Below, piece after piece: positions 1,717 through 52,541 of a DNA stretch of 64,000 bases. The first letter of the stretch is position 1. Each line of letters begins with the position of its first letter. The notes under the pieces are model-generated. The model ran no database searches. It had not been told where the DNA came from and was given only the letters and a program-made list of their open reading frames with translations. This stretch comes from Flavobacteriaceae bacterium (lineage in GTDB: Bacteria; Bacteroidota; Bacteroidia; Flavobacteriales; Flavobacteriaceae): assembly GCA_016744415.1 (NCBI GenBank), contig JADGEL010000003.1:186001-250000 (forward strand). The letters run 5' to 3'. A program made the translations under genes and the position numbers.

Positions 1717-2277
1717 ATGGACGAATTTATAGCATACCTAAAACAATACATTAACCTTTCTGATGAAGCTGAAAAGGATATTCTTAATTTAGCATTATTT
1801 GAAAGTATTCCTAAAGGACATTTATTATTAAAAGAAGGTAAAACCTGTGAGCGATTATACTTTATTGTAAAAGGGACTATAAGAACTTACCATTATCAAA
1901 AAGGAAAAGATATTACTTACTGGATCTACCCCGAAAACTCTATGATAACCTCTTGGCACAGTTATATTTTAAGAAAACCGGCATCTGAATATATTGAAAC
2001 TACTGAAGATTCAACATTAATATCTTTAACGTATAACCAATGGCAAGAGGTATATTTAAAATATCCTAAGCTAGAGCGTTTTGGGAGGATTATTCTTGAA
2101 GAGCAAATGGCACTTATTGATGACTTCTTTAAAGGCTATTATTTTTTAACTGCAAAAGAAAAATACAAGCTATTAACAACGGCTTTTCCAACCATTACAC
2201 AACGTGCTAATTTAGGACATATAGCCTCAATGTTAGGAATCTCTCAAGAGACATTGAGTAGAATTAGAGGAAAATAA
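1717..2277 (+). CDS. Crp/Fnr-family transcriptional regulator, FNR-type recognition helix
   Basis: This 186-residue protein has an N-terminal cyclic-nucleotide-binding-type β-barrel (about residues 10-120) and a C-terminal helix-turn-helix. The recognition helix SQETLSR carries E178, S181 and R182, the same E-xx-SR pattern that FNR uses to read TTGAT half sites. It has a single cysteine (C45) and no N-terminal Cys cluster, so it cannot hold an FNR-like 4Fe-4S centre; the effector is unknown. It sits beside five promoters carrying TTGAY-N4-RTCAA boxes and is the best candidate for their activator. That link is inferred from the helix and from proximity. The C-terminus is short, ending just after the recognition helix. 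Confidence 0.9.
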   Translation: MDEFIAYLKQYINLSDEAEKDILNLALFESIPKGHLLLKEGKTCERLYFIVKGTIRTYHYQKGKDITYWIYPENSMITSWHSYILRKPASEYIETTEDSTLISLTYNQWQEVYLKYPKLERFGRIILEEQMALIDDFFKGYYFLTAKEKYKLLTTAFPTITQRANLGHIASMLGISQETLSRIRGK

Positions 2278-2309
2278 CAAAATCTTACATTAGCTAATGT
2301 AAGATTTTG
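2278..2309. terminator. Perfect 32-bp palindrome, bidirectional terminator
   Basis: CAAAATCTTACATTAG is followed directly by its exact reverse complement. It starts on the base after the stop of the Crp/Fnr gene and lies before the end of the convergent DUF5777 gene. The AAAA and TTTT outer arms give a short U-run in either direction. Position and symmetry fit a shared intrinsic terminator, although a zero-base loop means the tip must open by a few base pairs. Confidence 0.75.
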
Positions 2310-2333
2310 TTATAAAAATGAGAATATTTTTAT

Positions 2334-3191
2334 TTAAAATACTCTCACAATATTAAATCCAAAAAACACTTTTCCAAACCAATCTCCTTCTGCATTGCTA
2401 ATAAAACCAGGTTCATTGGTAGATTGTGCGTTTGAGAAAAGTAACTGAAACACATGACCTCCAGTTTCGATATCTAACCCAATAGTTAAAGGATCATTAT
2501 AGATAGAGTCTTCATGCCTACTAAAATTATAAACATAGTCTGCATTAATAGACATACGCTTACTAATTTTATATCTACCTCCTACTCCTAATGCAATTTG
2601 ATTGTGTTTCTGAAAAGGTTCTAAAACTAGATTTTGACGAACAAAAGTTGGAGCTAGTTCTAATGAAAATTTATTATTTAATCTCCTTGAAACTAATAGC
2701 TGAGTAGCATAGCTCATGCGATCAGCAAATTGTAATAACGGATATTTATCTTCTTTTATATCTGTTCTAATATTTACTGTAGCATAGCCTACTATATTAA
2801 CTGGAAAATCTTTTGATTGACTCATAAATTTTGCCTTAATATGCGAAGAATATGTTTTTCTAATAGATTCTCTTGCCATTCCAATTTGAACTCCATTAAA
2901 GATGCCATAAACCATTTGTATTTTAGTATTGGCATTATCAAGCCCGAAAAAGGTGTCAAACCCATCGTTTAATGCACCAAAGCGATGGGATACATACATA
3001 TACAATTCTCCTTTGGCTGCAACTTTTGTAGATTGTAAATTTCCAATTTTCATAGCCTTAAAAGCTGGCTGTTCATAAGTAATGTCTTTTGTTTTTGCTT
3101 CATCTTCTAACTCATTTAACAAATCATCTTGTGCATTAACTGTATTTATGCATAGAAAGGTTAAGGCTAGTAATACAAGGTGTCTTTTCAT
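2334..3191 (-). CDS. DUF5777-type outer-membrane β-barrel protein
   Basis: This 285-residue secreted protein has a signal peptide ending near INTVNAQ. The rest is rich in alternating β-strand patterns and aromatic residues and ends in ...FNIVRVF, with the terminal Phe typical of outer-membrane barrels. I recognise it as the DUF5777 family of Bacteroidota barrels, whose function is not established. It is the last gene of the leftward cluster, after the OB-fold protein and YceI genes, and is probably transcribed from the FNR-like promoter at 6113-6156. A link to the cytochrome and YceI genes is inferred from neighbourhood only. Confidence 0.75.
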   Translation of the reverse strand: MKRHLVLLALTFLCINTVNAQDDLLNELEDEAKTKDITYEQPAFKAMKIGNLQSTKVAAKGELYMYVSHRFGALNDGFDTFFGLDNANTKIQMVYGIFNGVQIGMARESIRKTYSSHIKAKFMSQSKDFPVNIVGYATVNIRTDIKEDKYPLLQFADRMSYATQLLVSRRLNNKFSLELAPTFVRQNLVLEPFQKHNQIALGVGGRYKISKRMSINADYVYNFSRHEDSIYNDPLTIGLDIETGGHVFQLLFSNAQSTNEPGFISNAEGDWFGKVFFGFNIVRVF

Positions 3192-3241
3192 TTGTTTAGT
3201 TTATTATATAGTTTATCTTTTAAGAAAAAGATAAACACATT

Positions 3242-3634
3242 TTATTTATTAATAATTTTTGTTTGATCAATTTTTATTTCTTCCAGAAGGTCATCATAAC
3301 CCATCATGCGCCCTTTAATTTTTATGATTTGTCCAGTTTTTATTTCTGAATTTAAAAAGTTAACATCCCATTGACAGTAAATATTTTCATTACAAACAAA
3401 TCCTTTATCATCAATAGAGCTAACAATTCCTTCAAGTTCTACAATTACATTTTGCCACTTTATAGCATCCTGCTTAATTTTGTCTAAAAACACCGCTGCA
3501 GTTCCTGAAAAAGCTACTTCTAAATCATCAATTGATTTGTGTTTTTGATATATATACTGATAGGAATAATAACCACAAACAGCAATTATTGCTATAGTTA
3601 TTAGAACTACTTTATATTTTTTCGACAAGCTCAT
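3242..3634 (-). CDS. OB-fold (tRNA_anti-like) membrane-anchored protein
   Basis: This 130-residue protein has one N-terminal membrane segment (about residues 8-28, VVLITIAIIAVCGYYSYQYI) and a C-terminal domain that looks like the tRNA_anti-like OB fold (PF12869), with motifs such as VIVELEGIVSSID and IIKIKGRMMGYDDLLEE. Despite the family name, nothing ties it to tRNA; these domains are common in secreted Bacteroidota proteins. Its start overlaps the end of the YceI gene by 23 bases, which points to coupled translation. The exact function is unknown. Confidence 0.7.
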   Translation of the reverse strand: MSLSKKYKVVLITIAIIAVCGYYSYQYIYQKHKSIDDLEVAFSGTAAVFLDKIKQDAIKWQNVIVELEGIVSSIDDKGFVCNENIYCQWDVNFLNSEIKTGQIIKIKGRMMGYDDLLEEIKIDQTKIINK

Positions 3635-4157
3635 AACTAAGAGTTAAATGGATAGATTCTGCTATTTTTTTTCTAACAATACTTGGAATTTCAATATTAA
3701 AGTCTTGTGGAGATACATTAAACTCTGAGTCCAAAACAATTTTACTGCCTATTCTTTTTAAACGAACAATTGTTTCAACTTCTTTAGATATTCCTCTAAC
3801 AGTTAATATCCCTTTTAAAGTAAAATTCTTGTCTGATTTTGTTAATTCGTCTAAATTAAATGCAGCGATTTCGCCTTTAAAAGTTGCCTTCGAAAACTGA
3901 TCTGAATCCATATAGTTTTCATTAAAATGCTCTTGCATTAATGCGATATCAAAATGAAAAGATTTAATAAAAAGCAAAGCGGCAAATTCTCCTGTATTAG
4001 TATTAAGAATAGCTGTTGTACTTTTATTTTTTGCCTCAACAGACTCAAAAGCCTCAACAGATGCTTTAAATTCTGTTACTCCTGTTTTTGTATAATATTT
4101 TTGTGCCGAAACTAAAATTGAGCAAAAAAACATAATTAGGATAAATATTTTTTTCAT
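3612..4157 (-). CDS. YceI-family periplasmic protein
   Basis: This 181-residue protein has a signal peptide (MKKIFILIMFFCSILVSAQ) and a YceI-like lipocalin fold. Typical pieces are ENYMDSDQFSKATFKGEI (the family's conserved M-x-S-x-x-F-P-x-A-x-F region) and FTLKGILTVRGISKEV. Characterised YceI relatives bind polyisoprenoid chains, so this one may carry a lipid or quinone-like ligand in the periplasm. It lies between the cytochrome lipoprotein and the OB-fold gene in a tight leftward cluster. With the hydroxylase and Rieske genes of the divergent cluster, it suggests a hydrophobic substrate, but that is inference. Confidence 0.85.
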   Translation of the reverse strand: MKKIFILIMFFCSILVSAQKYYTKTGVTEFKASVEAFESVEAKNKSTTAILNTNTGEFAALLFIKSFHFDIALMQEHFNENYMDSDQFSKATFKGEIAAFNLDELTKSDKNFTLKGILTVRGISKEVETIVRLKRIGSKIVLDSEFNVSPQDFNIEIPSIVRKKIAESIHLTLSYELVEKI

Positions 4158-4172
4158 AAATTATGTGTTAAA

Positions 4173-4520
4173 TTAATTTTCTAGAAAACCATCACTAACC
4201 CATTTATCCATAACTTGTCTTAACTCTGGAGATACTAAACCGTTGGGTGGCATTGGATTGGTCTGATCATTCATTCGTTCTATTAAATTACCTGATTCAG
4301 CAGAATAACGTGTGTTTTGATATGTGCTTAAATCTAACCCGCTTTCTGGAGCCGGACCTCCATGACAAGTTATGCATCTGTTAAACATGATTGTTTCTAC
4401 ATCAGTATCATAAGTAACGACTCTTGTAATTGGAGTTAAGTCTTCATCTATTATTGCGGTTGTACAGCTTTGTAGTAAGCTTAAAGTTAAGACTCCTATA
4501 ATGAAATATTTCTTTTGCAT
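4173..4520 (-). CDS. c-type cytochrome lipoprotein, single heme
   Basis: This 115-residue lipoprotein has the lipobox LLQSC near the N-terminus. It has one heme-attachment motif, CITCH, within FNRCITCHGG, and a possible distal Met in NPMPPNG. This arrangement resembles small Bacteroidota cytochromes with a planctomycete-type C motif. It would sit on the periplasmic face and carry electrons. Only four bases separate it from the lipoprotein gene upstream, and the YceI gene follows 15 bases downstream, so all are likely one operon. The redox partner could be the di-heme peroxidase encoded divergently. Confidence 0.85.
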   Translation of the reverse strand: MQKKYFIIGVLTLSLLQSCTTAIIDEDLTPITRVVTYDTDVETIMFNRCITCHGGPAPESGLDLSTYQNTRYSAESGNLIERMNDQTNPMPPNGLVSPELRQVMDKWVSDGFLEN

Positions 4521-4524
4521 CGTT

Positions 4525-5691
4525 TTAATTTTGAATGGTTATATTATCAATTGTCATTTCATGTTGGCCTTCTGCATCGATAGTAATCATTTGCTGTACA
4601 TGAGTAAAGTCACCTTCAGAAATAACCCCATCTTCATTAACATCAGCCGTGATATTTACATAATAAGTGCCTGGGTGTAAATAAGTAATAAAAATACTTT
4701 CTTCATTCTGAGTTAATGCAGGAAATAATAATGTTGAATTGTATGCTTCTAAATCTGAAACAAAATATCCAAGTTCATCCGTAAAAGCGGATTTAGACAG
4801 GTTTACAAATAGTGTTTTATTTTCGATAGAAGGATTTCTAATAATATTAATATTTAAATATCCTAAATATGGATGCTGATCAATTCGCCAAGGATCACCA
4901 GACTCTTGAGCTAATGCAAAGACATCATTATTATTACCATCTTGAGCTAAAAAGGAAGCTGATACAGCTTCTGTCATCCCTGGATTTACATACAAATAGT
5001 CTTCTACAAACCCTTCAGAAAAATCCCAAGCAGGTATATTTTGAGGAAATCCAACAGCATTAGCTGCTGTTTGGGCTAGTTCATAATCATTTAGCTTTCC
5101 TTTAAACGTCATATGCCTAGTAGGCGGAACAACTATTCCAAGTCTACTGGTATATGCATTCCAATATAAACTATCTTGTTTAAAACGTAGCTCCATATAC
5201 ATAGTTCCAGAACCACCAACTGCATCTACCAATCTATAATAATTACCATTATTATCTGCCCTAACACTATCTAACACAAAATAGCTTGTTCTGTAAATTC
5301 CATTAAGTAAGCCTCCATTACGTGCCATAATTGTACGCTTGTTTTTAAAATCGGTTACAAAAAATGAGGTTAATAAATTACCTCCAGAACCACCTTCAAA
5401 AATACCATGAATTTGAGATGGAGAGTTTGCTCTATAGTCCCAAGTAAAAAACTCATAATCATCAGCAATTACACGATTGGATCCAACCCATTGCCCTTGC
5501 AATCTTTCTAATAAATCAAATCCGTTTGTATTTTGATTAATATCAATAGGGTCAACTTCTGAAGGATCTATTGGCACTGGACTTACTGTTTCATTTGACC
5601 CAGCAATATTTCTTAAATCATCTGTTGAGCAACCAATAATGAGTATTGATACTATTGCACTTAAGCTTAAAAATTGAATTGTTTTTTTCAT
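4525..5691 (-). CDS. Large lipoprotein of unknown function with EF-hand-like loop
   Basis: This 388-residue lipoprotein has a lipobox ILIIGC near residues 16-21. Residues about 60-200 look like a β-rich barrel domain opening with LQGQWVGSN. The C-terminal third contains a calcium-loop-like or dockerin-like motif DVNEDGVISEGDF. I do not recognise a named family. It follows the DUF2147-like gene by 15 bases and precedes the cytochrome gene by 4, so it belongs to the operon driven from 6113-6156. It may bind a ligand or scaffold the cytochrome on the membrane, but nothing in the sequence proves this. Confidence 0.75.
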   Translation of the reverse strand: MKKTIQFLSLSAIVSILIIGCSTDDLRNIAGSNETVSPVPIDPSEVDPIDINQNTNGFDLLERLQGQWVGSNRVIADDYEFFTWDYRANSPSQIHGIFEGGSGGNLLTSFFVTDFKNKRTIMARNGGLLNGIYRTSYFVLDSVRADNNGNYYRLVDAVGGSGTMYMELRFKQDSLYWNAYTSRLGIVVPPTRHMTFKGKLNDYELAQTAANAVGFPQNIPAWDFSEGFVEDYLYVNPGMTEAVSASFLAQDGNNNDVFALAQESGDPWRIDQHPYLGYLNINIIRNPSIENKTLFVNLSKSAFTDELGYFVSDLEAYNSTLLFPALTQNEESIFITYLHPGTYYVNITADVNEDGVISEGDFTHVQQMITIDAEGQHEMTIDNITIQN

Positions 5692-5706
5692 AATATATAT
5701 TAGGTT

Positions 5707-6093
5707 TTAATTTCTTATCCAGATTTCTTTTAAGGGTTTATGTAAAATATAACTAGTTACCTCTAAGGTGTCTTTGCTTAATAAATTAAGTGTTATGTTA
5801 TTTTCTGAATTTTTAGTGTTTGTAGCTCCAGCTAAAGCATCTACAAACAAATCATTCTTTTCTTTTAGGTTATTAAAAAAATAGTTTTTAGGTTGCCCTT
5901 CTTCATATTTATAAACAGTTGTATCATCATTATAATAAAGCACTACACCTTTTACTTCATTTTTTTCTTCTAGAATTTCACAAGTGGCTTTATAAAATTT
6001 ACTGTCAACTTCCCATATGCCAATCAATGGAACTTCCTTTTTAGCACAGGAAATAACTGCCATTATAATACCTAATAAAAATGCTTTCCTCAT
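5707..6093 (-). CDS. DUF2147-like lipoprotein, first gene of the leftward operon
   Basis: This 128-residue protein has a signal peptide and lipobox (MAVISCAKK). It opens its mature part with GIWEVDSKFYKATCEI, followed by GVVLYYNDDTTVY, and ends with LKEIWIRN. The same pattern (GAWDV, KVHYYNDGVTEY, YKETWKRN) occurs in the protein at 9114-9509, so the two are paralogues. This fits small DUF2147-like proteins, which have no established function. It is the first gene behind the promoter at 6113-6156, just as its paralogue is first behind the promoter at 9049-9092. Confidence 0.75.
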   Translation of the reverse strand: MRKAFLLGIIMAVISCAKKEVPLIGIWEVDSKFYKATCEILEEKNEVKGVVLYYNDDTTVYKYEEGQPKNYFFNNLKEKNDLFVDALAGATNTKNSENNITLNLLSKDTLEVTSYILHKPLKEIWIRN

Positions 6094-6112
6094 TTTGAAT
6101 ATTTCTATAAGG

Positions 6113-6156
6113 CAAATCTAATAGCGTTTGTGTTATTCCTTTTTGACTTATATCAA
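6113..6156 (-). promoter_or_regulatory. FNR-like box plus -7 element driving the leftward operon
   Basis: On the minus strand the palindrome TTGATATAAGTCAA (6156-6143) begins 36 bases before a perfect -7 element TAGATTTG (6120-6113). The DUF2147-like gene starts at 6093. The offset is the same at the four other boxes of this region. The layout fits class II activation by a Crp/Fnr-type protein, centred near -41.5 if transcription starts about six bases after the -7 element. Confidence 0.8.
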
Positions 6157-6183
6157 AATCATAAATAAAAAGTTTTTTGTTTT

Positions 6184-6227
6184 TTGATATAAGTCAAAAC
6201 AAAAAAATACTATCTAAATTACCTTTG
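6184..6227 (+). promoter_or_regulatory. FNR-like box plus -7 element driving the peroxidase gene
   Basis: The box TTGATATAAGTCAA (6184-6197) lies 36 bases, start to start, before TACCTTTG (6220-6227), a perfect TAnnTTTG element. The peroxidase start is at 6304, leaving a leader of about 70 bases. The two boxes at 6143-6156 and 6184-6197 lie back to back in the divergent promoter region, each serving its own direction. Confidence 0.82.
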
Positions 6228-6303
6228 AAGTCGTTATACAAAAGTTTATTTGTGAAACAATAGAAAACCGACCACATGGTGCATCTACAATAAAAAATAA
6301 AAC

Positions 6304-7372
6304 ATGAGAATTATTATCACTTTTAGCATTGTTTTTTTCCTTTTTTCTTGCTCAAAAGACGATGAAGCCTATTCCTCTACTTCTAACACCTATAATTTGG
6401 AACATGAAGGTCTACCAAACCCAAACATCCCAAGTGATAATCTATTAACAATTCAAGGAGTAGAATTAGGGCGAAAATTATTTTACGAAAAAATGTTAAG
6501 TAGCGATGAATCTATTTCATGTGCTAGTTGTCATGCTCAAGCAAATGCATTTTCAGATATTAATCGTTTTTCAACTGGAGTAAGAGACCAAACAGGATCG
6601 AGACAATCAATGGCAGTTTTTAATATGGCATGGAACGATTATGAGTTTTTTTTGGGACGGAAGAGCACATACGCTTAGAGATCAAGTTTTAATGCCTATT
6701 CAAGATCCCTTAGAGATGGATGAAGCTCTTGAAAGTGTAATAAACAAATTACAATCTAAAACAGATTATGTAACACATTTTGAGGAGGTATTTGGAACAT
6801 CTGGAATTAATTCATTAAATATCTCATTAGCACTAGAACAATTTGTTCATTCTATTGTTTCTAATAAAAGTAAATATGATAAGTTTTTAAAAAATGAAGC
6901 CACTTTAACCCCTTCAGAAGAAAGAGGAAGGTTGTTGTTTTTTAAAAGATATGATCCATCAGCTCCTAATGCTGCATTTGCAAATTGTGTGCAGTGCCAT
7001 GGAGGTCCAAATTTTGAGAATGATGATTATATGAATAATGGACTTGATTTAGAAGTGGATATAGATGATATTGGTAGAGCAATCGTTACCAATTCATCTA
7101 ATGATATAGGTGAATTTAAAGTCCCCTCTTTGCGGAATGTTGAATTAACACCGCCATATATGCACGATGGGCGGTTTGAAACATTGGAAGAGGTAGTAAA
7201 TCATTATAGCGAAGGAATTAAATACTCCCCAACAGTAAACCCAACTTTATTAAGTATATCAAACTTAGGCCCTCTTTTAAATGAGCAACAAAAAGCAGAT
7301 GTGGTATCTTTTCTAAAAACATTAACCGATTACGAACTCATATCTAATTCTAAATATTCCGATCCTTTTTAA
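6304..7372 (+). pseudogene. Di-heme cytochrome c peroxidase (MauG/CcpA type), one-base frameshift
   Basis: Two overlapping frames (6304-6678 and 6641-7372) together encode a 355-residue di-heme peroxidase once one base is removed. The first frame holds a lipobox (FLFSC) and the first heme motif CASCH. The second holds the family motif FFWDGRAHTL, the second heme motif CVQCH and the region PSLRNVELTPPYMHDGR. The switch occurs in a run of eight T (6646-6653): seven T would restore YEFFWDGR. The cause may be a real mutation, slippage at the T-run or a sequencing error. Such enzymes reduce H2O2 in the periplasm or oxidise a partner. It has its own FNR-like promoter and faces a cytochrome operon. 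Confidence 0.85.
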
Positions 7373-7560
7373 ATGACCTTATTAAAAGTAAATTTATAAA
7401 ACAAGGCTTTAAATTATTTTTCATCAAATCTTTTTTATTCTTTTTAGATAGCTCTTTAGACATTTTTAATCATTATGGAATATGGATGGAAAAGAAAATG
7501 TTTAGACGATTAAGAATAAAAGTGTAATACAATTAATATATTTATATTTTATTTACATCT
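7373..7560. other. Intergenic region, no FNR-like box
   Basis: These 188 AT-rich bases separate the peroxidase from the first small membrane protein. No gene and no copy of the FNR-like box are seen, so the small protein is probably read through from the peroxidase promoter or has a weak promoter of its own. Confidence 0.4.
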
Positions 7561-7824
7561 ATGAAATCAAAAATTAAGTGGCGTACAATTATTGCTTTAA
7601 TTCTTATGTATGTAGCAATAATTATGAATTGGCAGTGGGCTTGGGGAATATTGTTTCTCTTGTGGGTAATACCAGATTTAACTTCGGGAGTAACATACTT
7701 TATTGAACCAATCGATAAAAGAAAAAATCGATTTCTCTATTGGTTTATTATTATAAGTTGGATTTTAATGGCTATTTACTCTTTTTCTGTATTGTTTATT
7801 GATTACGAACAATACTATTATTAA
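7561..7824 (+). CDS. Small membrane protein, paralogue 1 of 3
   Basis: This 87-residue protein has two to three membrane segments (about residues 9-25, 26-42 and 60-80) around a short charged loop. It carries the pattern NWQWAWG...SGVTYFIEPIDKRK...YWF..ISWILMAIYS. The same pattern appears at 8815-9057 and 14048-14233, so the three are paralogues spread through one island. No named family is recognised. Repeated presence beside the ABC membrane domain and the radical SAM protein suggests a structural or accessory role in a membrane complex. Confidence 0.7.
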   Translation: MKSKIKWRTIIALILMYVAIIMNWQWAWGILFLLWVIPDLTSGVTYFIEPIDKRKNRFLYWFIIISWILMAIYSFSVLFIDYEQYYY

Positions 7825-7892
7825 ACACAATTATTTTAAAAACAAAACAATATTCATTATGAATAAATAGAGACTTACAAAAATTTAATAAT

Positions 7893-7936
7893 TTGATTTA
7901 AGTCAAATGTAATCTCCGTTTCCATATTTAAATTTG
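7893..7936 (+). promoter_or_regulatory. FNR-like box plus -7 element before the six-TM gene
   Basis: The box TTGATTTAAGTCAA (7893-7906) starts 36 bases before TAAATTTG (7929-7936). The next gene starts at 7965, so the leader is only about 20 bases. This promoter should drive the six-TM protein and the small membrane protein behind it. Confidence 0.82.
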
Positions 7937-7964
7937 CTTTCCAAATTAGTTGTGAAAACTTAAT

Positions 7965-8813
7965 ATGCAATCAGATTTTTCAATCAGTTCTATTTTTAAA
8001 CGCTTTAAGTGGAAAATATCCATAACATTTTTACTTCTTGTTTTTGAGAACATTTCTAAAGTCTTACAGCCTCTTGTTTTGGGGATAGCAATTAATGATC
8101 TTATTCATAAAAAAAATGATGGCCTTTGGCTTTTTTGCATACTATACGGTATAAGTTTTATAATTGGCGTTATAAGGCGTTATTATGATACTAGAACATA
8201 CACCTTTATTTATACTAAAGTAGCTTCAGAAATTGCCAAAATACAAAATGAAAAAGAAGTTTCTGTATCGTCAATTGCAGCCAGAAGTTCTTTAATAAAA
8301 GAACTTGTAGATTTTTTCGAGTACGATGTTACTCATGCTTTTACTTCATTAATTGGAGTAATTGGTGCACTAATTATGTTAGCATTATTTAATTGGTGGA
8401 TTTTTGGAGCTTGCCTACTAACTATTCTCTTAATCTTTATTATTTACGCTTTGAGTAATAAAAACATATATAATTTCAATATTGGATTGAATGACGAATT
8501 AGAACATCGGATTACAGTTCTAGAAACTAGAGAGCAACAGGGTATAGTAGGTCACTTTAAAAACATCTCTAAATGGCTAGTGAAACTTTCTGATTTAGAA
8601 ACTCTTAATTTTGGTATTATCGAAATTATTCTATTTGTCTTAGTGATTTTCGCACTTTATATTTCCGCAAGTGCTACCAATACTACTGCTGGTGGTATTT
8701 TTTCAATTATTACTTATATTTTAGAATTTTCGAATGGTATTTTTATGTTGCCAATTGTTTTTCAACAAATTATTAGGCTACAAGAAATTAGTTTACGTTT
8801 AAAATCAATTTAA
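7965..8813 (+). CDS. ABC transporter six-transmembrane domain protein without ATPase
   Basis: This 282-residue protein consists almost wholly of an ABC-exporter-type membrane domain (like PF13748). Hydrophobic segments occur near residues 15-40, 55-72, 125-145, 147-165, 220-240 and 245-265. No Walker A, signature or Walker B motif is present, and no separate ATPase gene lies in the island. It may pair with an ATPase encoded elsewhere or act as a non-transport membrane scaffold. The next gene, a small membrane protein, starts one base after its stop, so the two are co-translated from the promoter at 7893. Confidence 0.8.
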   Translation: MQSDFSISSIFKRFKWKISITFLLLVFENISKVLQPLVLGIAINDLIHKKNDGLWLFCILYGISFIIGVIRRYYDTRTYTFIYTKVASEIAKIQNEKEVSVSSIAARSSLIKELVDFFEYDVTHAFTSLIGVIGALIMLALFNWWIFGACLLTILLIFIIYALSNKNIYNFNIGLNDELEHRITVLETREQQGIVGHFKNISKWLVKLSDLETLNFGIIEIILFVLVIFALYISASATNTTAGGIFSIITYILEFSNGIFMLPIVFQQIIRLQEISLRLKSI

Positions 8814-8814
8814 T

Positions 8815-9057
8815 ATGAATAAGTGGAAAACATCATTTGCATTAGTTTTAATGGCTATCGCTATCTATTTTAATTGGAGTTGGTTTTGGGCAGCGTTTAT
8901 TATGCTTGGGTTAATTCATGTTATTAAAAGTGGTGAAATTCATTTTGTTGAAGCTGTTAAAAGAAAAGAAACACCAAAACTCTATTGGTTTATGGTTGCT
9001 ATTTGGTCTTTACTTGCCCTATATTCTATTTTAAATTATTTAAACATTTTGACTTAA
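8815..9057 (+). CDS. Small membrane protein, paralogue 2 of 3
   Basis: This 80-residue protein has the same layout as the one at 7561-7824: a tryptophan-rich turn NWSWFWA, a loop SGEIHFVEAVKRKE, then LYWFMVAIWSLLALYSI. Membrane segments are near residues 5-35 and 58-76. It starts one base after the six-TM gene. Its stop codon lies inside the FNR-like box of the next promoter (9049-9062), so the two operons are packed without spare sequence. The function is unknown; partnership with the six-TM protein is inferred. Confidence 0.7.
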   Translation: MNKWKTSFALVLMAIAIYFNWSWFWAAFIMLGLIHVIKSGEIHFVEAVKRKETPKLYWFMVAIWSLLALYSILNYLNILT

Positions 9058-9092
9058 GTCAAAGATTAAGCTCTTATTAATTAAGACATTTG
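9049..9092 (+). promoter_or_regulatory. FNR-like box plus -7 element before the oxygenase operon
   Basis: The perfect palindrome TTGACTTAAGTCAA (9049-9062) starts 36 bases before GACATTTG (9085-9092), a -7 element with G for the first T. The DUF2147-like gene follows at 9114. The box overlaps the stop codon of the upstream gene. Confidence 0.8.
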
Positions 9093-9113
9093 TATTATTA
9101 AATTAAATAAATT

Positions 9114-9509
9114 ATGAGAAAAATATTTAAAATAGGAACACTTCTAATTATCACTTTATCTTTTAATGCTTGTGCACAACAAGATAATATTGTGGGGGCT
9201 TGGGATGTAAAAACAGACGCATATCAAGCTATCTATGAAATTGTAGAATATGACGGTCAGTTTTTTGGCAAAGTACACTACTATAATGATGGTGTCACTG
9301 AATACAATGGTAATGATAAAAAAGAAGATTATTTCTTAACAGATGTTGAATTTAAAGATGGAAAGTACATTAACGGAAAAATGTATTTACCAGACAGTAG
9401 TTTTTATAATGTTATTTTCACATTGAAAGACAACAATACACTAGAAGCCATAATGACTGTAAATGGTGCTCCCTACAAAGAAACTTGGAAAAGAAACACT
9501 TCAAATTAA
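9114..9509 (+). CDS. DUF2147-like secreted protein, paralogue of 5707-6093
   Basis: This 131-residue protein has a signal peptide with a lipobox-like LSFNAC. The mature part begins near GAWDVKTDAYQAIYEI, continues with GKVHYYNDGVTEY and ends with YKETWKRN. It aligns along its length with the DUF2147-like lipoprotein of the divergent operon. It is the first gene of the operon that continues with the hydroxylase, Rieske oxygenase and reductase. Its β-rich build suggests a small ligand-binding fold, but no function is known. Confidence 0.75.
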   Translation: MRKIFKIGTLLIITLSFNACAQQDNIVGAWDVKTDAYQAIYEIVEYDGQFFGKVHYYNDGVTEYNGNDKKEDYFLTDVEFKDGKYINGKMYLPDSSFYNVIFTLKDNNTLEAIMTVNGAPYKETWKRNTSN

Positions 9510-9514
9510 ACCTT

Positions 9515-10468
9515 ATGAGTAATACTAAACTTTTAATATATAGCTTACTAATAATTGCTGTAATTACAGGAAGCGTACATGCTGTTGCAAACTTTTCAGA
9601 TTTAAATATTTTATTTTCCGAAACCGTTGATTATTGGTTCTATATTTTTAATGATCTAAGCTTAATCTATATTATCATTCCATTTTTCTTTATCGAGCTT
9701 ATCCGTTATGCCGTTATTAAAAAACTAGGAAAAGATATTATACTCGATTCAGTAGCAAACGTAATTACTTTTATTGCTTTTATAATTATAGAATATACTT
9801 TGGGTTTATTAGCCATTACTAAAGTGTATTACTGGTTACACCATAACTTTAGCTTAGAACATTTACCTTTAAATATTGTGACCATATTCGGAGCTGTTTT
9901 AATAGCCGATTTTGCATACTATTGGGATCACAGGATGATGCATAGAATAAGTCTAGGTTGGGCTACTCATACAGTTCATCACAGTTCTGAACATTTTAAC
10001 ATGTCTGTAGCCTATAGATTCGGTCCTCTTGATGCCATATTTCCTATCATTTTTTCATTACCAATTGTAATGTTAGGATTTGATCCTTTATTGGTTTTAT
10101 CTGCTGAAATATTTGTGCAAGTATTCCAAACACTTTTACATACAGAAATTATAGGGAAGCTACCAAAACCTATTGAAAAAATATTTAATACACCTTCGCA
10201 TCACAGAGTACATCATGGTTCTAATAGGCAGTATTGGGATAAAAACTATGCAGGTATTTTAATTATTTGGGATCGTATGTTGGGTACTTTTGAACCTGAA
10301 GTAGAAAAAGTTTGCTACGGTATTTCCGAACCTTTAAACAGTGTTAACCCAGTAAAAGTGTTTTTTCACGGTTTAACTAGGCTCGGTAAAAAATTAGGAG
10401 AAACAAAAGGAATCGCTAATAAATTTAAAGTATTGGTTAAACCACCAGATTGGACACCTTCAAAATAA
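9515..10468 (+). CDS. Fatty-acid hydroxylase / sterol desaturase superfamily membrane enzyme
   Basis: This 317-residue membrane protein carries the three His clusters of the PF04116 di-iron superfamily: HRMMH (139-143), HTVHH (152-156) and HHRVHH in the C-terminal third. Four or five hydrophobic segments lie before and between them. Members insert oxygen into or desaturate lipids, sterols, carotenoids or ether lipids at the membrane. The ATG at 9515, five bases after the upstream stop, is preferred over a TTG at 9485 inside the previous gene. The Rieske oxygenase starts seven bases later. The substrate is unknown. Confidence 0.88.
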   Translation: MSNTKLLIYSLLIIAVITGSVHAVANFSDLNILFSETVDYWFYIFNDLSLIYIIIPFFFIELIRYAVIKKLGKDIILDSVANVITFIAFIIIEYTLGLLAITKVYYWLHHNFSLEHLPLNIVTIFGAVLIADFAYYWDHRMMHRISLGWATHTVHHSSEHFNMSVAYRFGPLDAIFPIIFSLPIVMLGFDPLLVLSAEIFVQVFQTLLHTEIIGKLPKPIEKIFNTPSHHRVHHGSNRQYWDKNYAGILIIWDRMLGTFEPEVEKVCYGISEPLNSVNPVKVFFHGLTRLGKKLGETKGIANKFKVLVKPPDWTPSK

Positions 10469-10474
10469 ATCATT

Positions 10475-11674
10475 ATGACTAATAATAAAATGATGCATGC
10501 TTTACCTGTTGATGCTTATACATTGCAAAAATGGTTTGATTTAGAACAGAAACATATTTTTAGTAAAACATGGCAGTTTGCTGGTTTAGTAGAAGATGTT
10601 ACAAATCCAGGTGATTATATTTCTGTACAAGCAGGGTTAAATAATATATTTATTATTAAAGGACGCGATCAGCGCCTACGTGCCTTCCATAATATGTGTC
10701 GACATCGTGGTACACAATTATTGCGTGCCGTCGGTAAAAGTAAAAAAGCCATAACATGCCCTTATCATGATTGGACTTACGATTTAGAAGGTAAACTAAT
10801 TAGTATTCCGAAGAAAGAAGAAGAATTTCCAGATTTATGTAATAAAGAATTACACGATTGTGGTTTAAACCTTCATGAAGCATCAGTAGATGTTTTTAAA
10901 GGGATGCTCTTTGTTCACCCTAAAAAGAATGCTCCAAGCATTATGGAATTCTTTGGTGAAGTAGCTCCTTTTCTTGGACCTCACATTCCAGAAGAATTGA
11001 TTGAATATAAACAAAAAAAAGACGAACCATTTTACGTCAAAGAGATACATGCTAATTGGAAGATAATAGTAGAAAACTATATAGATCATTATCATTTAGC
11101 ACATTTACATCAAGGCACACTAAATATGTACGACCATTCTAAAGCAGAATTTGGTTGGGCTGGACCACATTATTGGTTTTATGAACCCTTGGTGCCAGAA
11201 TATTTAGAAGATGTAAAAAACGCAGCACCTTACCCACTAATTGATAAAATGCCAGAAGATAAAATGGGTGCTTATGTACCTTGGTTATTTCCTAATATAG
11301 GCATTACTGAAAGCGAAAGCGCTTGGAATACTTTTCATGTTTTACCGCTTTCACCAGATAGAACTTTGGTAACTATTCGTTCCAAAACGATGAATGTAAG
11401 CGAATGGGAATATACCAAGCAATACACAAAATCTATGGCAAGTAAAGTATGGGAAATTTATGGTAACAGAGGAAAATATGATGGTGACAAAAATGACCCA
11501 ATGGCTTCTGGAGATTTTATGTTAGAAGATATTTATGCCTGTGAGCAGCAACAAAAATCGTTGAGTTCTCCTATGTTTAGTGTCGGAGCGCAAGCACAAC
11601 GAGGTGAATATGCAATTGGGCGTTTTCAGGAAGAAATAAAACAATGGATAGAAAAGTATAGAGACAATGAGTAA
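10475..11674 (+). CDS. Rieske non-heme iron oxygenase, α subunit
   Basis: This 399-residue protein has an N-terminal Rieske domain with C75-x-H77 (CRHRG) and C95-xx-H98 (CPYHDW). The catalytic domain supplies the mononuclear iron ligands D204/H207/H212 in NYIDHYHLAHLH, with D352 as the likely third ligand. The length and motifs resemble the choline/carnitine/stachydrine monooxygenase branch of the ring-hydroxylating family more than the classic aromatic dioxygenases with β subunits; no β-subunit gene is present. Electrons should come from the reductase, whose start overlaps its end by eight bases. Substrate class (lipid, amine or aromatic) cannot be fixed from the sequence. Confidence 0.92.
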   Translation: MTNNKMMHALPVDAYTLQKWFDLEQKHIFSKTWQFAGLVEDVTNPGDYISVQAGLNNIFIIKGRDQRLRAFHNMCRHRGTQLLRAVGKSKKAITCPYHDWTYDLEGKLISIPKKEEEFPDLCNKELHDCGLNLHEASVDVFKGMLFVHPKKNAPSIMEFFGEVAPFLGPHIPEELIEYKQKKDEPFYVKEIHANWKIIVENYIDHYHLAHLHQGTLNMYDHSKAEFGWAGPHYWFYEPLVPEYLEDVKNAAPYPLIDKMPEDKMGAYVPWLFPNIGITESESAWNTFHVLPLSPDRTLVTIRSKTMNVSEWEYTKQYTKSMASKVWEIYGNRGKYDGDKNDPMASGDFMLEDIYACEQQQKSLSSPMFSVGAQAQRGEYAIGRFQEEIKQWIEKYRDNE

Positions 11675-12749
11675 ACTCTATCTATTAAAAATACTAGAAA
11701 TAAAAAAAGAAACAGAAGATTCTGTATCTGTCTCTTTTGATGTCCCTCATGATTTACATGACATATTTAATTATAAGGCAGGGCAATACCTAACACTAAA
11801 ATTTAACATAAATGGAGAAGAAGTAATTCGTTCTTATTCATTATGCAGTTCTCCAGTTTTTGATGAACCTCTTAAAATTGGAGTAAAGCGCGTTAAAAAT
11901 GGATTGGTTTCAAACCACATCAACAATAATCTTAAAGTTGATGATTTAGTTGAAGTTATGCCTCCTAACGGACGCTTTTTTGCTGATGTTAAAAATAATA
12001 ATTACAAAACTTATTATCTATTTTCTGCTGGAAGTGGTATTACTCCAATTTTATCAATTCTCCATACTGTTTTATTAACTGAAGAACACAGTTATGTTTA
12101 TATGATTTATGGAAATAGAACAGAAAATTCAATAATGTTTAAAGCAGAATTAGAAAAGCTTCAAGAAGATTATGCAAATAGATTTATTTTAATACATACA
12201 GTAAGTCGCCCAAAAAGTAATTGGAGTGATTTATGGAAATCTTTAAATGAACAAACTTTTCGAAAAGGTCGAGTAGATACTCAAGCTGTAGAATGGTTTG
12301 TAAAAGAATACCCTCCTTATGCACAAAATGTTGAATATTATATTTGTGGACCAGGAACAATGATTGAAAACACAAAAAAAGCATTGAAAAGTATTGATGT
12401 GCCTGATGAGCGTATTTTTATTGAAAGCTTTACAGGATTAAACAAAACAAATAATAGTATAGGAATGGAAAACGCTAAATTAATTGCACTTTTAAATGAT
12501 GAAAAAATTGAAATAGCTGTTCCAAAGGGAAAAACGATTTTAAGAACTTTAATTGATGCTGGTAAAGAACCTCCTTATTTTTGTGAAGGAGGTATGTGCT
12601 TAACTTGTATGTGCAAATTAAAAAATGGCAAAGTCCATATGAATAATAATCTCTCTTTAACAGACAAAGAAGTTGAACAAGGATATATTTTAAGTTGCCA
12701 AAGCATTCCATTATCAGATACATTAGAAATTGAATACCCTAAAAAGTAA
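11667..12749 (+). CDS. Flavin/2Fe-2S oxygenase reductase (PaaE-like arrangement)
   Basis: This 360-residue protein has an N-terminal FAD-binding barrel with the flavin motif RSYSLCSS (R55-S62), an NAD(P)-binding domain (SAGSGITPILSIL, later YYICGPGTMI), and a C-terminal plant-type ferredoxin domain with cluster ligands C306, C311, C314 and C344. This FAD-NAD-2Fe2S order lets a single protein feed a Rieske oxygenase. It overlaps the oxygenase gene by eight bases, so the pair is a two-component monooxygenase or dioxygenase. It is the last gene of the operon; a new promoter follows at 12756. Confidence 0.92.
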   Translation: MSKLYLLKILEIKKETEDSVSVSFDVPHDLHDIFNYKAGQYLTLKFNINGEEVIRSYSLCSSPVFDEPLKIGVKRVKNGLVSNHINNNLKVDDLVEVMPPNGRFFADVKNNNYKTYYLFSAGSGITPILSILHTVLLTEEHSYVYMIYGNRTENSIMFKAELEKLQEDYANRFILIHTVSRPKSNWSDLWKSLNEQTFRKGRVDTQAVEWFVKEYPPYAQNVEYYICGPGTMIENTKKALKSIDVPDERIFIESFTGLNKTNNSIGMENAKLIALLNDEKIEIAVPKGKTILRTLIDAGKEPPYFCEGGMCLTCMCKLKNGKVHMNNNLSLTDKEVEQGYILSCQSIPLSDTLEIEYPKK

Positions 12750-12755
12750 ATTATT

Positions 12756-12799
12756 TTGATTTAGGTCAAAGTAGAAAAGAGAATTTTATCTGAACTTTG
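12756..12799 (+). promoter_or_regulatory. FNR-like box plus -7 element before the radical SAM gene
   Basis: The box TTGATTTAGGTCAA (12756-12769) starts 36 bases before GAACTTTG (12792-12799), a -7 element with G for the first T. The radical SAM start codon is at 12824. It begins seven bases after the reductase stop. Confidence 0.78.
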
Positions 12800-12823
12800 T
12801 AGTGTTAATTAAAATTAGTGCTT

Positions 12824-14035
12824 ATGAAAGTTTATCTAATCAAAGCTTCCGCAGGAAGTGAATATTCAAAATATAAAGCAGAAACAGGTGGTCCTCCACA
12901 AAATATTTTTTCTGCTGCAGCAACAACTCCAAGTCATGTAGAAATTGAAATGTGTGATGAGACCATTGGAATGAAAACTGATTTTAATTCTAATGCTGAT
13001 ATTGTTGCCATTTTCATGTCAACACCAGATGCTCTACGCGCATATGAAATAGCCGATAAATTTAGCCTGCAAGATAAAACAATTGTACTTGGAGGACTGC
13101 ATACTCATTTTATGCAAGAAGAAGCTAGTACACATGCAGATACTATCCTAATTGGTGAAATAGAAGGTATTTGGGAAGAGCTTTTAGAAGATTTTCAAAA
13201 TGGAAATTTAAAGAAGAGTTACAAGCGTGATACTGTTTTTGATCTAAAAAACCTTAAACCTTATCCAACACATCTTATCTATCCAGAGCGTTATGATTAT
13301 ACTTGGTCTGTAGTTGTTTCAAGAGGATGTCCTTTTAAATGTGATTTTTGTCTGGTACATAAATTCTTTAAAAAATTTCAATTACGACCTATAGAAAATA
13401 TTGTTAGCGAACTAAAAGCCTTAAAAAAGATTGGAATAGAATGGGTGGAACTACATTCAGATAATTTAACTCAGGATAAAGAATATGCCATTGCCCTTTT
13501 TGAAGCCATTGCACCTTTAAAAATGAATTTTTATGGCGAAACAACTATTATGATTGCTAGAGATAAACGCCTTTTAGCCGCAGCTCAAAAAGCGGGAATT
13601 AAAACCTTATTATTTGGTATAGAGACCCCTTCTGAAAAAGCATTAAAAGATCAGGGAAAATCTTTTGTTAAACCAGCTAAAATAAAAGAATACGCTAAAA
13701 TTATTAAAAGTTATGGCATTGAAGTTGTTGGAGATTTCTTATTTGGTTTTGATGCACATGATACAAGCATTTTTCAAGAAACGTTAGATTTTGTAAAAGA
13801 TATAGATGTTGATAAAGTGTATCCGCACCTAGTCATTCCATTCCCAGGATCTGACACTTTTAAACGATTGGATGAAGAAGGTCGAATTCTCACTAAGGAC
13901 TGGTCTAAATACGAAGGCAGTTATGCAGTATATCAACCTAAATTAATGACCACAGGAGAATTAGAAGAAGGCTTAATGTGGTTTTGGTACAAAAACGCAA
14001 ACTTTGGAGATAAATTAAAATTTATGTTTAGTTAA
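12824..14035 (+). CDS. B12-binding-domain-type radical SAM enzyme
   Basis: This 403-residue protein has an N-terminal Rossmann-like domain (about 1-130) of the type that binds cobalamin, then a radical SAM barrel with C169-xxx-C173-xx-C176 (RGCPFKCDFC). GETTIMIARD and LLFGIETPSEKAL are typical later motifs. The N-terminal domain lacks the DxHxxG loop, so B12, if bound, would be held without that histidine. Characterised relatives build or modify chlorophyll rings, hopanoids, antibiotics and lipids. The ATG at 12824 is used; a GTG lies two codons upstream. A small membrane protein follows 12 bases later. The substrate is unknown. Confidence 0.88.
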   Translation: MKVYLIKASAGSEYSKYKAETGGPPQNIFSAAATTPSHVEIEMCDETIGMKTDFNSNADIVAIFMSTPDALRAYEIADKFSLQDKTIVLGGLHTHFMQEEASTHADTILIGEIEGIWEELLEDFQNGNLKKSYKRDTVFDLKNLKPYPTHLIYPERYDYTWSVVVSRGCPFKCDFCLVHKFFKKFQLRPIENIVSELKALKKIGIEWVELHSDNLTQDKEYAIALFEAIAPLKMNFYGETTIMIARDKRLLAAAQKAGIKTLLFGIETPSEKALKDQGKSFVKPAKIKEYAKIIKSYGIEVVGDFLFGFDAHDTSIFQETLDFVKDIDVDKVYPHLVIPFPGSDTFKRLDEEGRILTKDWSKYEGSYAVYQPKLMTTGELEEGLMWFWYKNANFGDKLKFMFS

Positions 14036-14047
14036 AAATATAACATT

Positions 14048-14233
14048 ATGAATTTATGGTTTTATATAGGAATTGGATTAATTATTTGGGTATTGTATGA
14101 TTTGTATTATGGTGTCACATGGTCATTTAGACCTATTTACAGAGAGTATGAACCTAATACATATTGGTTCGTTTCAATAATTTGGTTAGTTTTTGCAATT
14201 ACAACAACTCTAGCTGGTTTAGGAATGTTGTAA
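14048..14233 (+). CDS. Small membrane protein, paralogue 3 of 3
   Basis: This 61-residue protein is a shortened version of the proteins at 7561 and 8815. It keeps the second half of the pattern: YYGVTWSFRPIYREYEPN, then YWFVSIIWLVFAITT. Two membrane segments lie near residues 3-20 and 39-58. It follows the radical SAM gene directly and should share its promoter. It ends 20 bases before the convergent ion-channel gene, with no clear terminator between them. Confidence 0.65.
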   Translation: MNLWFYIGIGLIIWVLYDLYYGVTWSFRPIYREYEPNTYWFVSIIWLVFAITTTLAGLGML

Positions 14234-14253
14234 TTACAGTATTTCCACGTTAT

Positions 14254-14904
14254 TTATTTAGTTTGATTAATGTACTTACCTACAACAATTGCAGTAATTA
14301 TCACTAAATAAATTTGCCCAACCAAGCCAATTAAAATGGCAGCTTTTTGAGCCAATTGTGTCACCGGTAGAATATCTCCATAGCCAATAGTTAATAATGT
14401 AACATAACTGTAATACATTAAGCTATCTGTTAAAGTGGTGCTAGCAAGAATCCCTTCAAACGAATTTGGATGTGCCATTTCTATACTTATACAGATAAAA
14501 AAGCCTATTAGACCTAAAGCAATGTAACCACTTATTAGTCCAAAAATGACATTTGTATTTACAACTTTAACTCTCCAAACTTGACTTATAATCTCATATG
14601 TTACTATTATATAAAATAAAAAATAAGTAATCATTCTAAGAAAATTTAAAAACCCTTGATTCTTATTCTCCATTAAATTAGTGCCAAAAATAAAAGCGCT
14701 AATAATCAATAATACAGTTAGAAACCACATCAGTTTTTCCTTTTTTGACACTAATAAAATACCTGCTAAAAGATTGATTTCAAATAATACTGGTGATACT
14801 ATATTTTCAAATAATTCTTCAGGTATTATTAATGAACCAAATAAAATTGCAATTTGACTAAAAAAGAAAAATTCAAAACGATAAGTATATAATTTTTTAA
14901 ACAT
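14254..14904 (-). CDS. Potassium-channel-type two-pore-helix ion channel
   Basis: This 216-residue membrane protein has several N-terminal hydrophobic segments and then a P-loop with the selectivity filter TIGYGD (within TLLTIGYGDILP), followed by a last membrane helix (IGLVGQIYLVIITAIVVGKYI). This is the Ion_trans_2 pattern of K+ channels. There is no visible cytoplasmic RCK or cyclic-nucleotide domain. A TACTTTTG element at 14942-14935 supplies the promoter. It has no FNR-like box and is probably not part of the island to its left. Confidence 0.87.
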   Translation of the reverse strand: MFKKLYTYRFEFFFFSQIAILFGSLIIPEELFENIVSPVLFEINLLAGILLVSKKEKLMWFLTVLLIISAFIFGTNLMENKNQGFLNFLRMITYFLFYIIVTYEIISQVWRVKVVNTNVIFGLISGYIALGLIGFFICISIEMAHPNSFEGILASTTLTDSLMYYSYVTLLTIGYGDILPVTQLAQKAAILIGLVGQIYLVIITAIVVGKYINQTK

Positions 14905-51804: not shown

Positions 51805-52485
51805 TTAGCTAACACTTGCAATATTTTTTAGTATTTCAATAGATTTTCGATCAAAATTAATCCAACCTTCTTCCTTCAATTCATTCATAAGAATATTTAA
51901 GGTTGGTCTAGAAATACCTAATAGACACGCCATGTCTTTTTGAGTATATGGATGCGCTATTATTTTATGCCCAGATTTTTCACAGTCATATCCAAAATCT
52001 TCACACATCTCCATAAGAAACTCTTGCAATCTTGTTTTAGCATCTTTAAATAATAATAGTTGAAGACGTCTTTCTAATCGTTTAATTCTAAAATTTATCA
52101 ACTTAAAAAAACCTAGTGCAAATTTTTTGTTATCCTGAATTAAATCTTGAAGTGCTTCAGCATCTATAGGACAAATAGATGTGTTATCGTTGAGTGATTG
52201 TGCAAATTCACTTCTCTTTTCTTCTCCTAAAACTGATTTTTCACCAAAGACTTCACCTTTTGAAAGTATCGCTTTTACAATTTCTTGCCCATCTTCAGTA
52301 TAGTATCCTAATTTTATCTTTCCATTATTGATAAGGAATACTTTATTAGCCGATTCATCCGTAAAATAGACATAATCAGTTTTATTATAAATATTAAAAT
52401 TGTGAGTTTCTTTATATGTCGCAAACTTATGAGGACACAATATCTTAAAAAGATTGACGCATTCTAAATACCAAATATTTTTCAT
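51805..52485 (-). CDS. Crp/Fnr-family transcriptional regulator
   Basis: This 226-residue protein has a cyclic-nucleotide-binding-type sensor domain (VFLINNGKIKLGYYTEDGQEIVKAIL, GEVFGEKSVL) and a C-terminal winged helix with YTQKDMACLLGISRPTLN. The recognition helix SRPTLN lacks the E-xx-SR pattern of FNR, so it should read a site other than TTGAT. The ATG at 52485 is used because the longer alternative would start inside the aconitase terminator hairpin. It may respond to a small ligand; its targets are unknown. Confidence 0.88.
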   Translation of the reverse strand: MKNIWYLECVNLFKILCPHKFATYKETHNFNIYNKTDYVYFTDESANKVFLINNGKIKLGYYTEDGQEIVKAILSKGEVFGEKSVLGEEKRSEFAQSLNDNTSICPIDAEALQDLIQDNKKFALGFFKLINFRIKRLERRLQLLLFKDAKTRLQEFLMEMCEDFGYDCEKSGHKIIAHPYTQKDMACLLGISRPTLNILMNELKEEGWINFDRKSIEILKNIASVS

Positions 52486-52510
52486 AATCTTTATATAGTC
52501 GTAGAAATAA

Positions 52511-52541
52511 AAAAAACTCACAATTAATTTGTGAGTTTTTT
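52511..52541 (-). terminator. Intrinsic terminator of the aconitase gene
   Basis: AAAAAACTCACAA (52511-52523) and TTGTGAGTTTTTT (52529-52541) form a 13-bp stem with a 5-base loop. It sits 24 bases after the aconitase stop on the minus strand and decides the start of the next gene. Confidence 0.85.

Follow-up and report, generated by a model that had tools for sequence, protein, structure and literature searches.

Which protein reads the five FNR-like palindromes of this flavobacterial DNA, and what does it do there? The DNA is a stretch of 64,000 nucleotides (nt) from a Flavobacteriaceae bacterium (contig JADGEL010000003.1, positions 186,001 to 250,000), called the window below. An earlier note on it had placed the palindromes at one constant distance from a promoter -7 element and had proposed class II activation by a single Crp/Fnr-type protein. 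Our analysis points to a short Crp/Fnr-type protein of 186 amino acids, encoded at 1717-2277 of the same window, and we put at about 0.83 the probability that the five boxes are the operators of this protein and that it is the class II activator of the regulon. The boxes and their -7 elements are:

Box 1, 6143..6156, minus strand: TTGATATAAGTCAA, exact palindrome TTGAYN4RTCAA, start 6156
-7 element 1, 6113..6120, minus strand: TAGATTTG, +36 from box 1
Box 2, 6184..6197, plus strand: TTGATATAAGTCAA, exact palindrome
-7 element 2, 6220..6227, plus strand: TACCTTTG, +36 from box 2
Box 3, 7893..7906, plus strand: TTGATTTAAGTCAA, exact palindrome
-7 element 3, 7929..7936, plus strand: TAAATTTG, +36 from box 3
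Box 4, 9049..9062, plus strand: TTGACTTAAGTCAA, contains the TAA stop of the open reading frame (ORF) 8815-9057
-7 element 4, 9085..9092, plus strand: GACATTTG, +36 from box 4
Box 5, 12756..12769, plus strand: TTGATTTAGGTCAA, exact palindrome
-7 element 5, 12792..12799, plus strand: GAACTTTG, +36 from box 5

All five palindromes were found where the note had put them (6156 on the minus strand, 6184, 7893, 9049 and 12756), each with the exact form TTGAYN4RTCAA, and, followed along the transcribed direction, every -7 element began exactly 36 nt further on; three of the five elements were perfect and two had G replacing the first T, as described. The statement that no such box was seen elsewhere in the window needs a correction. 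Two more exact palindromes (5533 and 61151) were found in the window scan, both within ORFs and both lacking a -7 element at +36.

The signal lies in the fixed offset, since palindromes with at most one mismatch barely exceed chance in the window (26 found compared to 18.2 expected; 5 of 100 shuffles reach 26). With KAnnTTTG occurring at a rate of 0.00135 per strand position, the probability that at least 5 of 14 palindrome orientations share one fixed offset is 9e-12, or 5e-10 allowing 60 offsets, and it is still 2e-6 when 60 offsets are allowed and the -7 rate is set five times higher. A chance origin of the spacing was rejected on these offset statistics. Scanning the whole genome for the box-plus-36 pattern, a check that the earlier note had suggested, gave the same picture: in 3,133,816 bases on 6 contigs (98.4% complete; the window is C6:186001-250000), the box followed by 22 nt and KAnnTTTG had 5 exact matches, all in the window cluster, compared to 0 for the reversed-pattern control. 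With up to two mismatches, 109 matches were obtained against 45 in the reversed control, an excess that stems partly from a second box family (RTGAYN4RTCAY) treated below. TTTGAYNTANRTCAAA alone had one further exact genomic place, C4:560746, which falls in an ORF and has no -7 element at +36, and a one-mismatch box with a perfect -7 element at C2:427037 was also within an ORF. Of the places added by the exact and one-mismatch searches of this genome, the two inspected were not convincing, and weaker sites are possible.

An operator centred at -41.5 occupies the class II position. For the mapped transcription starts of F. psychrophilum, TAnnTTTG is described at -12 to -5 (PMC9723704); with the -7 element placed there, the window boxes would span -48 to -35, with their centre at -41.5. 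The spacing was compared in relatives taken from a scan with the Rieske protein of the window (best 80 of 197 candidate loci), of which the 27 Bacteroidota loci (L071-L097, at least 70% identity) were used and the other 53 (53-59% identical, mostly from other phyla) were left out. At least one box with (C/G/T)AnnTTTG at +36 was present in 25 of the 27 loci, despite diverged spacers; the loci are not independent, because several are from Tenacibaculum or Aquimarina. In the offset histogram of the window and the 27 loci, 68 boxes fell at +36 compared to a mean of 0.6 per other offset, and the biggest other count, 18 at +71, was caused by the pairing of neighbouring divergent boxes. An extended motif, TTTTGAY-N-TA-N-RTCAAA, emerged from columns left free in the search: TT before the box in 96%/100%, the central TA in 99%/96% and A after the box in 99% of these 68 non-independent boxes.

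The likely regulator of the five boxes, judged from its sequence and its linkage, is the following protein:

1717..2277, plus strand: short Crp/Fnr-type regulator, 186 amino acids, with the helix ISQETLSRIR at the extreme C-terminus; proposed activator

It has an N-terminal cNMP_binding domain (PF00027, 38.9 bits; cut-off 27.5) and matches PDB 3dn7 over residues 5-186, nearly its full length (E = 2.2e-21); a segment IAS.LG.S.ETLSR stands at the C-terminus. In FNR, the recognition helix carries E, S and R. The FNR-type helix residues and the TTGAT-N4-ATCAA box occur together here: the ISQETLSR helix is identical in the window protein and 18 orthologs, and QETLSR is invariant. The same proteins contain 0 to 2 cysteines, short of the four that the 4Fe-4S cluster of FNR requires. 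Nor does cAMP-CRP fit, the half-sites being TTGAY and not TGTGA and Q standing where CRP has R180.

Seven PF00027 proteins, one below the family cut-off, were found in the genome, and all were compared by tblastn against the 27 loci. Orthologs of the 1717 protein appeared in 18 loci (40-85% identity); a 19th match, in L091, was 28% identical and was excluded from the ortholog count. The other six Crp/Fnr proteins had no gene of their own in these loci, and the few weak matches of two of them hit the 1717 orthologs. In L071, L090, L096 and L097, the Crp gene ends shortly 5' of the box preceding the Rieske genes. The two genes also co-occur: among 199 genomes sampled from the family, the Rieske gene (called at E <= 1e-80) was present in 6, and a Crp match at E 2.2e-60 or better was found in 6/6 of these compared to 1/193 without it (G072), the next genome being at 2.6e-44 and 22 genomes passing 1e-30. 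G072, with no Rieske gene at the cut-off, still has a box between its Crp gene and a divergent c13/FA_hydroxylase pair. Together, the 68 boxes at +36, their centre at -41.5 and the linked, co-occurring Crp gene give strong comparative support to the earlier proposal of class II activation by one Crp/Fnr-type protein, and the view that the offset is not chance was borne out in the window, the genome and the relatives.

Several observations weigh against this reading. No Pfam helix-turn-helix (HTH) domain was found in the 186-amino-acid protein; no box lies 5' or directly 3' of its gene in the window, its boxes being 4 kb away; 9 of the 27 loci are without a linked Crp ortholog, some of them on short contigs, and two of the genomes carry an ortholog elsewhere; in L088 and L093, a box followed at +36 by a strict -7 element is missing; and the E-value line behind 6/6 and 1/193 was chosen after seeing the gap from 2e-60 to 3e-44.

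In the mechanism that we propose, a homodimer of the 186-amino-acid protein would use its C-terminal helix Q-E-T-L-S-R to bind TTTTGAY-N-TA-N-RTCAAA. With its centre 41.5 bp before the transcription start, and 22 nt ahead of TAnnTTTG, the -7 element of sigma-A, it would contact RNA polymerase as a class II activator, substituting for the missing -33 contact. The regulon switched on in this way would comprise haem-c proteins, fatty-acid-hydroxylase-type and Rieske-type oxygenases, a reductase and a radical SAM protein. We infer binding by this protein, activation and not repression, and a small-molecule signal other than oxygen via an Fe-S cluster; to guess from the targets, this molecule is probably one that the cell encounters under stress or in catabolism. 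The five boxes face five gene runs (6093-2334 on the minus strand, 6304-7372, 7965, 9114-12749 and 12818), and the genes around them are:

2334..6093, minus strand: gene run, presumably under the 6156 box (ORFs, Pfam, same order in relatives)
5707-6093, minus strand: small lipoprotein-like protein, related to the DUF2147-like protein at 9114; run member
4525-5691, minus strand: 388-amino-acid protein; run member
4173-4520, minus strand: cytochrome c (Pfam); run member
3612-4157, minus strand: YceI (Pfam); run member
3242-3634, minus strand: 130-amino-acid protein; run member
2334-3191, minus strand: DUF5777 barrel; last of the run
6304..7372, plus strand: di-haem cytochrome c peroxidase (CCP_MauG), as ORFs 6304-6678 and 6641-7372, overlapping in different frames
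7561..7824, plus strand: small membrane-type protein, 87 amino acids, family c0 (ORF)
7965..8813, plus strand: ABC transmembrane-type protein without ATPase domain (ABC_membrane_3, Pfam)
8815-9057, plus strand: small membrane-type protein after the ABC_membrane_3 gene, its stop inside box 4
9114..12749, plus strand: run of four genes downstream of box 4
9114-9509, plus strand: DUF2147-like (Pfam match under cut-off)
9485-10468, plus strand: FA_hydroxylase (Pfam)
10475-11674, plus strand: Rieske oxygenase (Pfam)
11667-12749, plus strand: ferredoxin-type reductase (Pfam)
12818..14035, plus strand: B12-binding radical SAM-type protein (B12 domain match under the Pfam cut-off)

The minus-strand run, whose gene order is retained in relatives, would form a single operon. 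The closest solved structure to the Rieske protein is carnitine monooxygenase (E = 4.6e-31, residues 9-217) and the closest NCBIfam model is GbcA (130.6 bits; cut-off 670), and the enzyme is accordingly given no substrate here. The idea of a local regulon stands for this genome at exact stringency, but it is not a rule, as boxes lie outside the cluster in at least three other genomes, and the limits drawn by the earlier note have to be moved left beyond 6113 to take in the minus-strand run to 2334 and the regulator at 1717-2277.

Some further features were seen around these genes. The CCP_MauG gene, split over two frames in the window by sequencing error or decay, is a single ORF in relatives (L227, L233). 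A long, seemingly perfect hairpin at 2281-2312, directly 3' of the Crp gene and before the DUF5777 gene that converges on it, has the look of a bidirectional terminator. Adenylate/guanylate-cyclase-type genes adjoin the regulator or sit between boxed genes in some relatives (L173:8727-9650, L080:7048-8070), and one of these is fused to a 2Fe-2S ferredoxin domain. A second Crp/Fnr-type gene of the window (51805-52521) adjoins an aconitase-like gene and encodes a normal HTH_Crp_2 domain with the helix SRPTLN.

TTGAT-N4-ATCAA is the classical box of FNR and, as given in PMC1274295, of DNR, and the five boxes might accordingly belong to the oxygen/redox-sensing Fnr of this genome, with the cluster forming part of a low-oxygen response. 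We consider this improbable in view of the second box family. RTGAYN4RTCAY with KAnnTTTG at +36 had 11 exact places in the genome, and 32 with one mismatch compared to 8 in the control. With the gap left free between 10 and 36 nt, 11 of 18 matches fell at gap 22, and in 17 genomes 85 of 136 did so, followed by 9 at gap 23 and 7 at gap 21. The rule of 36 nt is thus shared by two box types of this genome, and it appears to be a general class II geometry here. Example sites are:

C4:688566, C2:208003/208033 and C6:288847, own genome (loci L018-L044): second-family boxes

The first genes after ten of these sites encode, among others, the families COX1 (an oxidase), POR (2-oxoacid:ferredoxin oxidoreductase), Fer4 ferredoxin, FeoB, OmpW, PEPCK, ArsR, PhoU_div and Sulf_transp, and one has no Pfam match. 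The gene of a CxxC-motif Crp/Fnr protein (C4:685649) has a pair of the sites some 2.5 kb away. The RTGAYN4RTCAY set is likely the Fnr regulon of this genome and of flavobacteria, and the CxxC-type protein near the COX1 gene is its probable regulator. A global Fnr regulon owning the five window boxes was rejected because Fnr-type genes carry this different box. Moreover, the Rieske and FA_hydroxylase-type enzymes of the cluster belong to families that require oxygen, and the only Crp/Fnr type linked in the 27 loci is that of the 1717 protein, which we prefer as the regulator.

Boxes of the window type also accompany short Crp genes in other genomes. TTGAYNTANRTCAA followed at +36 by BAnnTTTG had 71 matches in 45 of the 199 genomes, compared to 1 in the reversed control; 5 were those of the window, 12 lay in window-type clusters or already fetched loci, and 54 (in 53 stretches) were tested. 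In 39 of the 54, the box directly followed the 3' end of a same-strand short Crp gene, at -8 to +110 nt from the gene end, and in 14 of these 39 cassettes the regulator's TGA stop lay within the TTGA half-site of its putative operator (L182, L183, L184 and others). The remaining 15 included 9 in three genomes that also have a window-type cluster, two of them before CCP_MauG peroxidases, as well as one box facing an ABC_membrane_3 protein and one facing a DJ-1 protein. A scan of 20 of the 51 targets, in which cassettes and other sites were pooled and 4 proteins had no match, gave families that included OEP efflux, Oxidored_FMN, DUF998, DJ-1_PfpI, HbpS-like, DoxX, Polyketide_cyc2, DUF2807, DUF1761 and more.

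These targets bear on the possibility that the protein is a nitric oxide/nitrite-responsive regulator of the HcpR/DNR kind and that the cluster serves nitrosative stress. The HcpR1 motif wyTTGACnnnnGTCAArw is indeed close to that of the window, and HcpR and DNR are described as lacking the FNR cysteines (PMC1274295). We nevertheless hold it to be just as improbable as ownership by Fnr: none of the 16 cluster and neighbour proteins scanned at 1717-14904 was of an hcp, nor, nir or nos gene (the rest of the genome was not searched for them), the protein is short, ending at the recognition helix, and in relatives the genes that this box would govern are of efflux, flavin reductase, DJ-1 and DoxX types. 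Marginally less probable still is repression by a dimer that occupies the -33 region and shuts out RNA polymerase. The box does overlap this region, and an operator there can repress, but the single exact offset (68 boxes, and gap 22 in 85/136 matches of the second regulator in 17 genomes) fits polymerase contact better because blocking tolerates shifts, and in 2 of the 5 window -7 elements the first T position is the weakened one. We retain the reading of class II activation by the 186-amino-acid protein.

The pairing of helix and box was surveyed in regulators ranked without regard to the box. A profile (A1) of 26 short Crps, 21 of them cassettes found via the box, gave a ranked list from 27 genomes that is blind to the box and biased to A1-like proteins; 90 places were taken, 30 with the search and 60 by rank, and as one had no Crp ORF and two gave another ORF, 87 were kept. 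Within 130 nt 3' of the genes (89 rows), NTGAN-N4-NTCAN was followed by [CGT]AnnTTTG 18 times at +36 and at none of the 17 other offsets between 28 and 45. Palindromes of at least 7/9 pairs, set against any -7 element, were centred at -41.5 in 21 cases compared to 8 in total at 24 other shifts, and those of 8/9 pairs in 10 cases compared to 1. A TTGAY box went with E-T-x-S-R helices lacking R180 in 13/15 cases and with all other helices in 1/72 (6/7 and 0/71 excluding nine rows known before); of the two exceptions, one is the regulator of the window itself, with its boxes 4 kb off. The P values for this pairing, 1.4e-12 by Fisher's test and those from permutation, take no account of relatedness. 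A tree of the 87 regulators, with the HTH region excluded, contained just 2 independent pairs on supported branches, below the reach of significance; in those, the box follows the helix in 1.8 on average and never the opposite, and R185 and G3 go together in 1.0 of 2.

Among the palindromic cases, G3 was present in 30/32 half-sites of 16 regulators with E181 and R185, A3 in 23/26 half-sites of 13 regulators with E181 but without R185, and C5 in 26/26 half-sites of 13 regulators with R185 but not E181, the two half-sites not being independent because the boxes were selected for palindromicity. The direction agrees with the 180/181 specificity rule given in PMC1274295. RETLSR helices (with R180), predicted to read GTGA, had in 3/8 cases a box of which at least one half carries G, one with a -7 element beginning with A, and no box in 5/8, which is suggestive only. 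Downstream of short Crp genes with other helices (EYLSS, EYLST, EYLSE, EHLSK and VQLSR in L244, L249, L270, L283 and L256) stood other palindromes at -41.5, such as CTTAAGATACCTTAAG.

On balance, we lean towards the view that the window is a multi-operon member of a large, mostly undescribed family of Bacteroidota activator cassettes, each consisting of a short Crp/Fnr gene that ends with its recognition helix, an 18-bp palindrome at exactly -41.5 directly 3' of the gene, often overlapping its stop codon, and a target, in which the half-site may be readable from the helix (TTGAY for E181 and R185; TTAAN for E181 without R185; a half-site ending in C for another residue at 181 with R185). A search of the open-access literature found no description of this regulon or of such cassettes, although an earlier one is possible. 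The -35 logic familiar elsewhere is absent from Bacteroidota promoters, and most of the phylum's many Crp/Fnr-type genes are orphans. One exact geometry for two regulators in one genome and for the box-blind set offers a simple way to locate operators, promoters and targets, and it would supply spacing rules usable for building regulated promoters in harmless flavobacteria. The helix-to-box pairing makes the DNA choice of these proteins testable via two-residue swaps. If the cassette family is real, sequence alone could suffice to assign an operator and a target to many of the phylum's orphan regulators.

The closest known systems share parts of this arrangement. Class II promoters of E. coli FNR have their operator centre at -41.5, the 29.5 nt from there to -12 being equal to the box-to-element distance of the window, and are read by a helix E..SR; their core TTGAT-N4-ATCAA (also in PMC1274295) is that of the window. 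Unlike FNR, the window protein has no four-cysteine cluster and ends right after the recognition helix, its regulon contains oxygen-using enzymes, and the sigma-A -7 element is TAnnTTTG and not TATAAT. HcpR1 and DNR are alike in a TTGAC-N4-GTCAA-type motif, the absence of FNR cysteines and specificity by residues 180/181, as described in PMC1274295, whereas the window protein is short and the scanned proteins of its cluster are without hcp, nor, nir or nos. PDB 3dn7, an uncharacterised cyclic-nucleotide-binding regulatory protein whose title reports no function, has the same short form (194 amino acids), with the helix PEYLSE in place of QETLSR. CrpPg of Porphyromonas gingivalis, likened here by description and not by sequence, is also a Bacteroidota Crp/Fnr protein, one for which PMC12040651 reports that no cyclic-nucleotide binding was found, and it differs in being described there as a global regulator.

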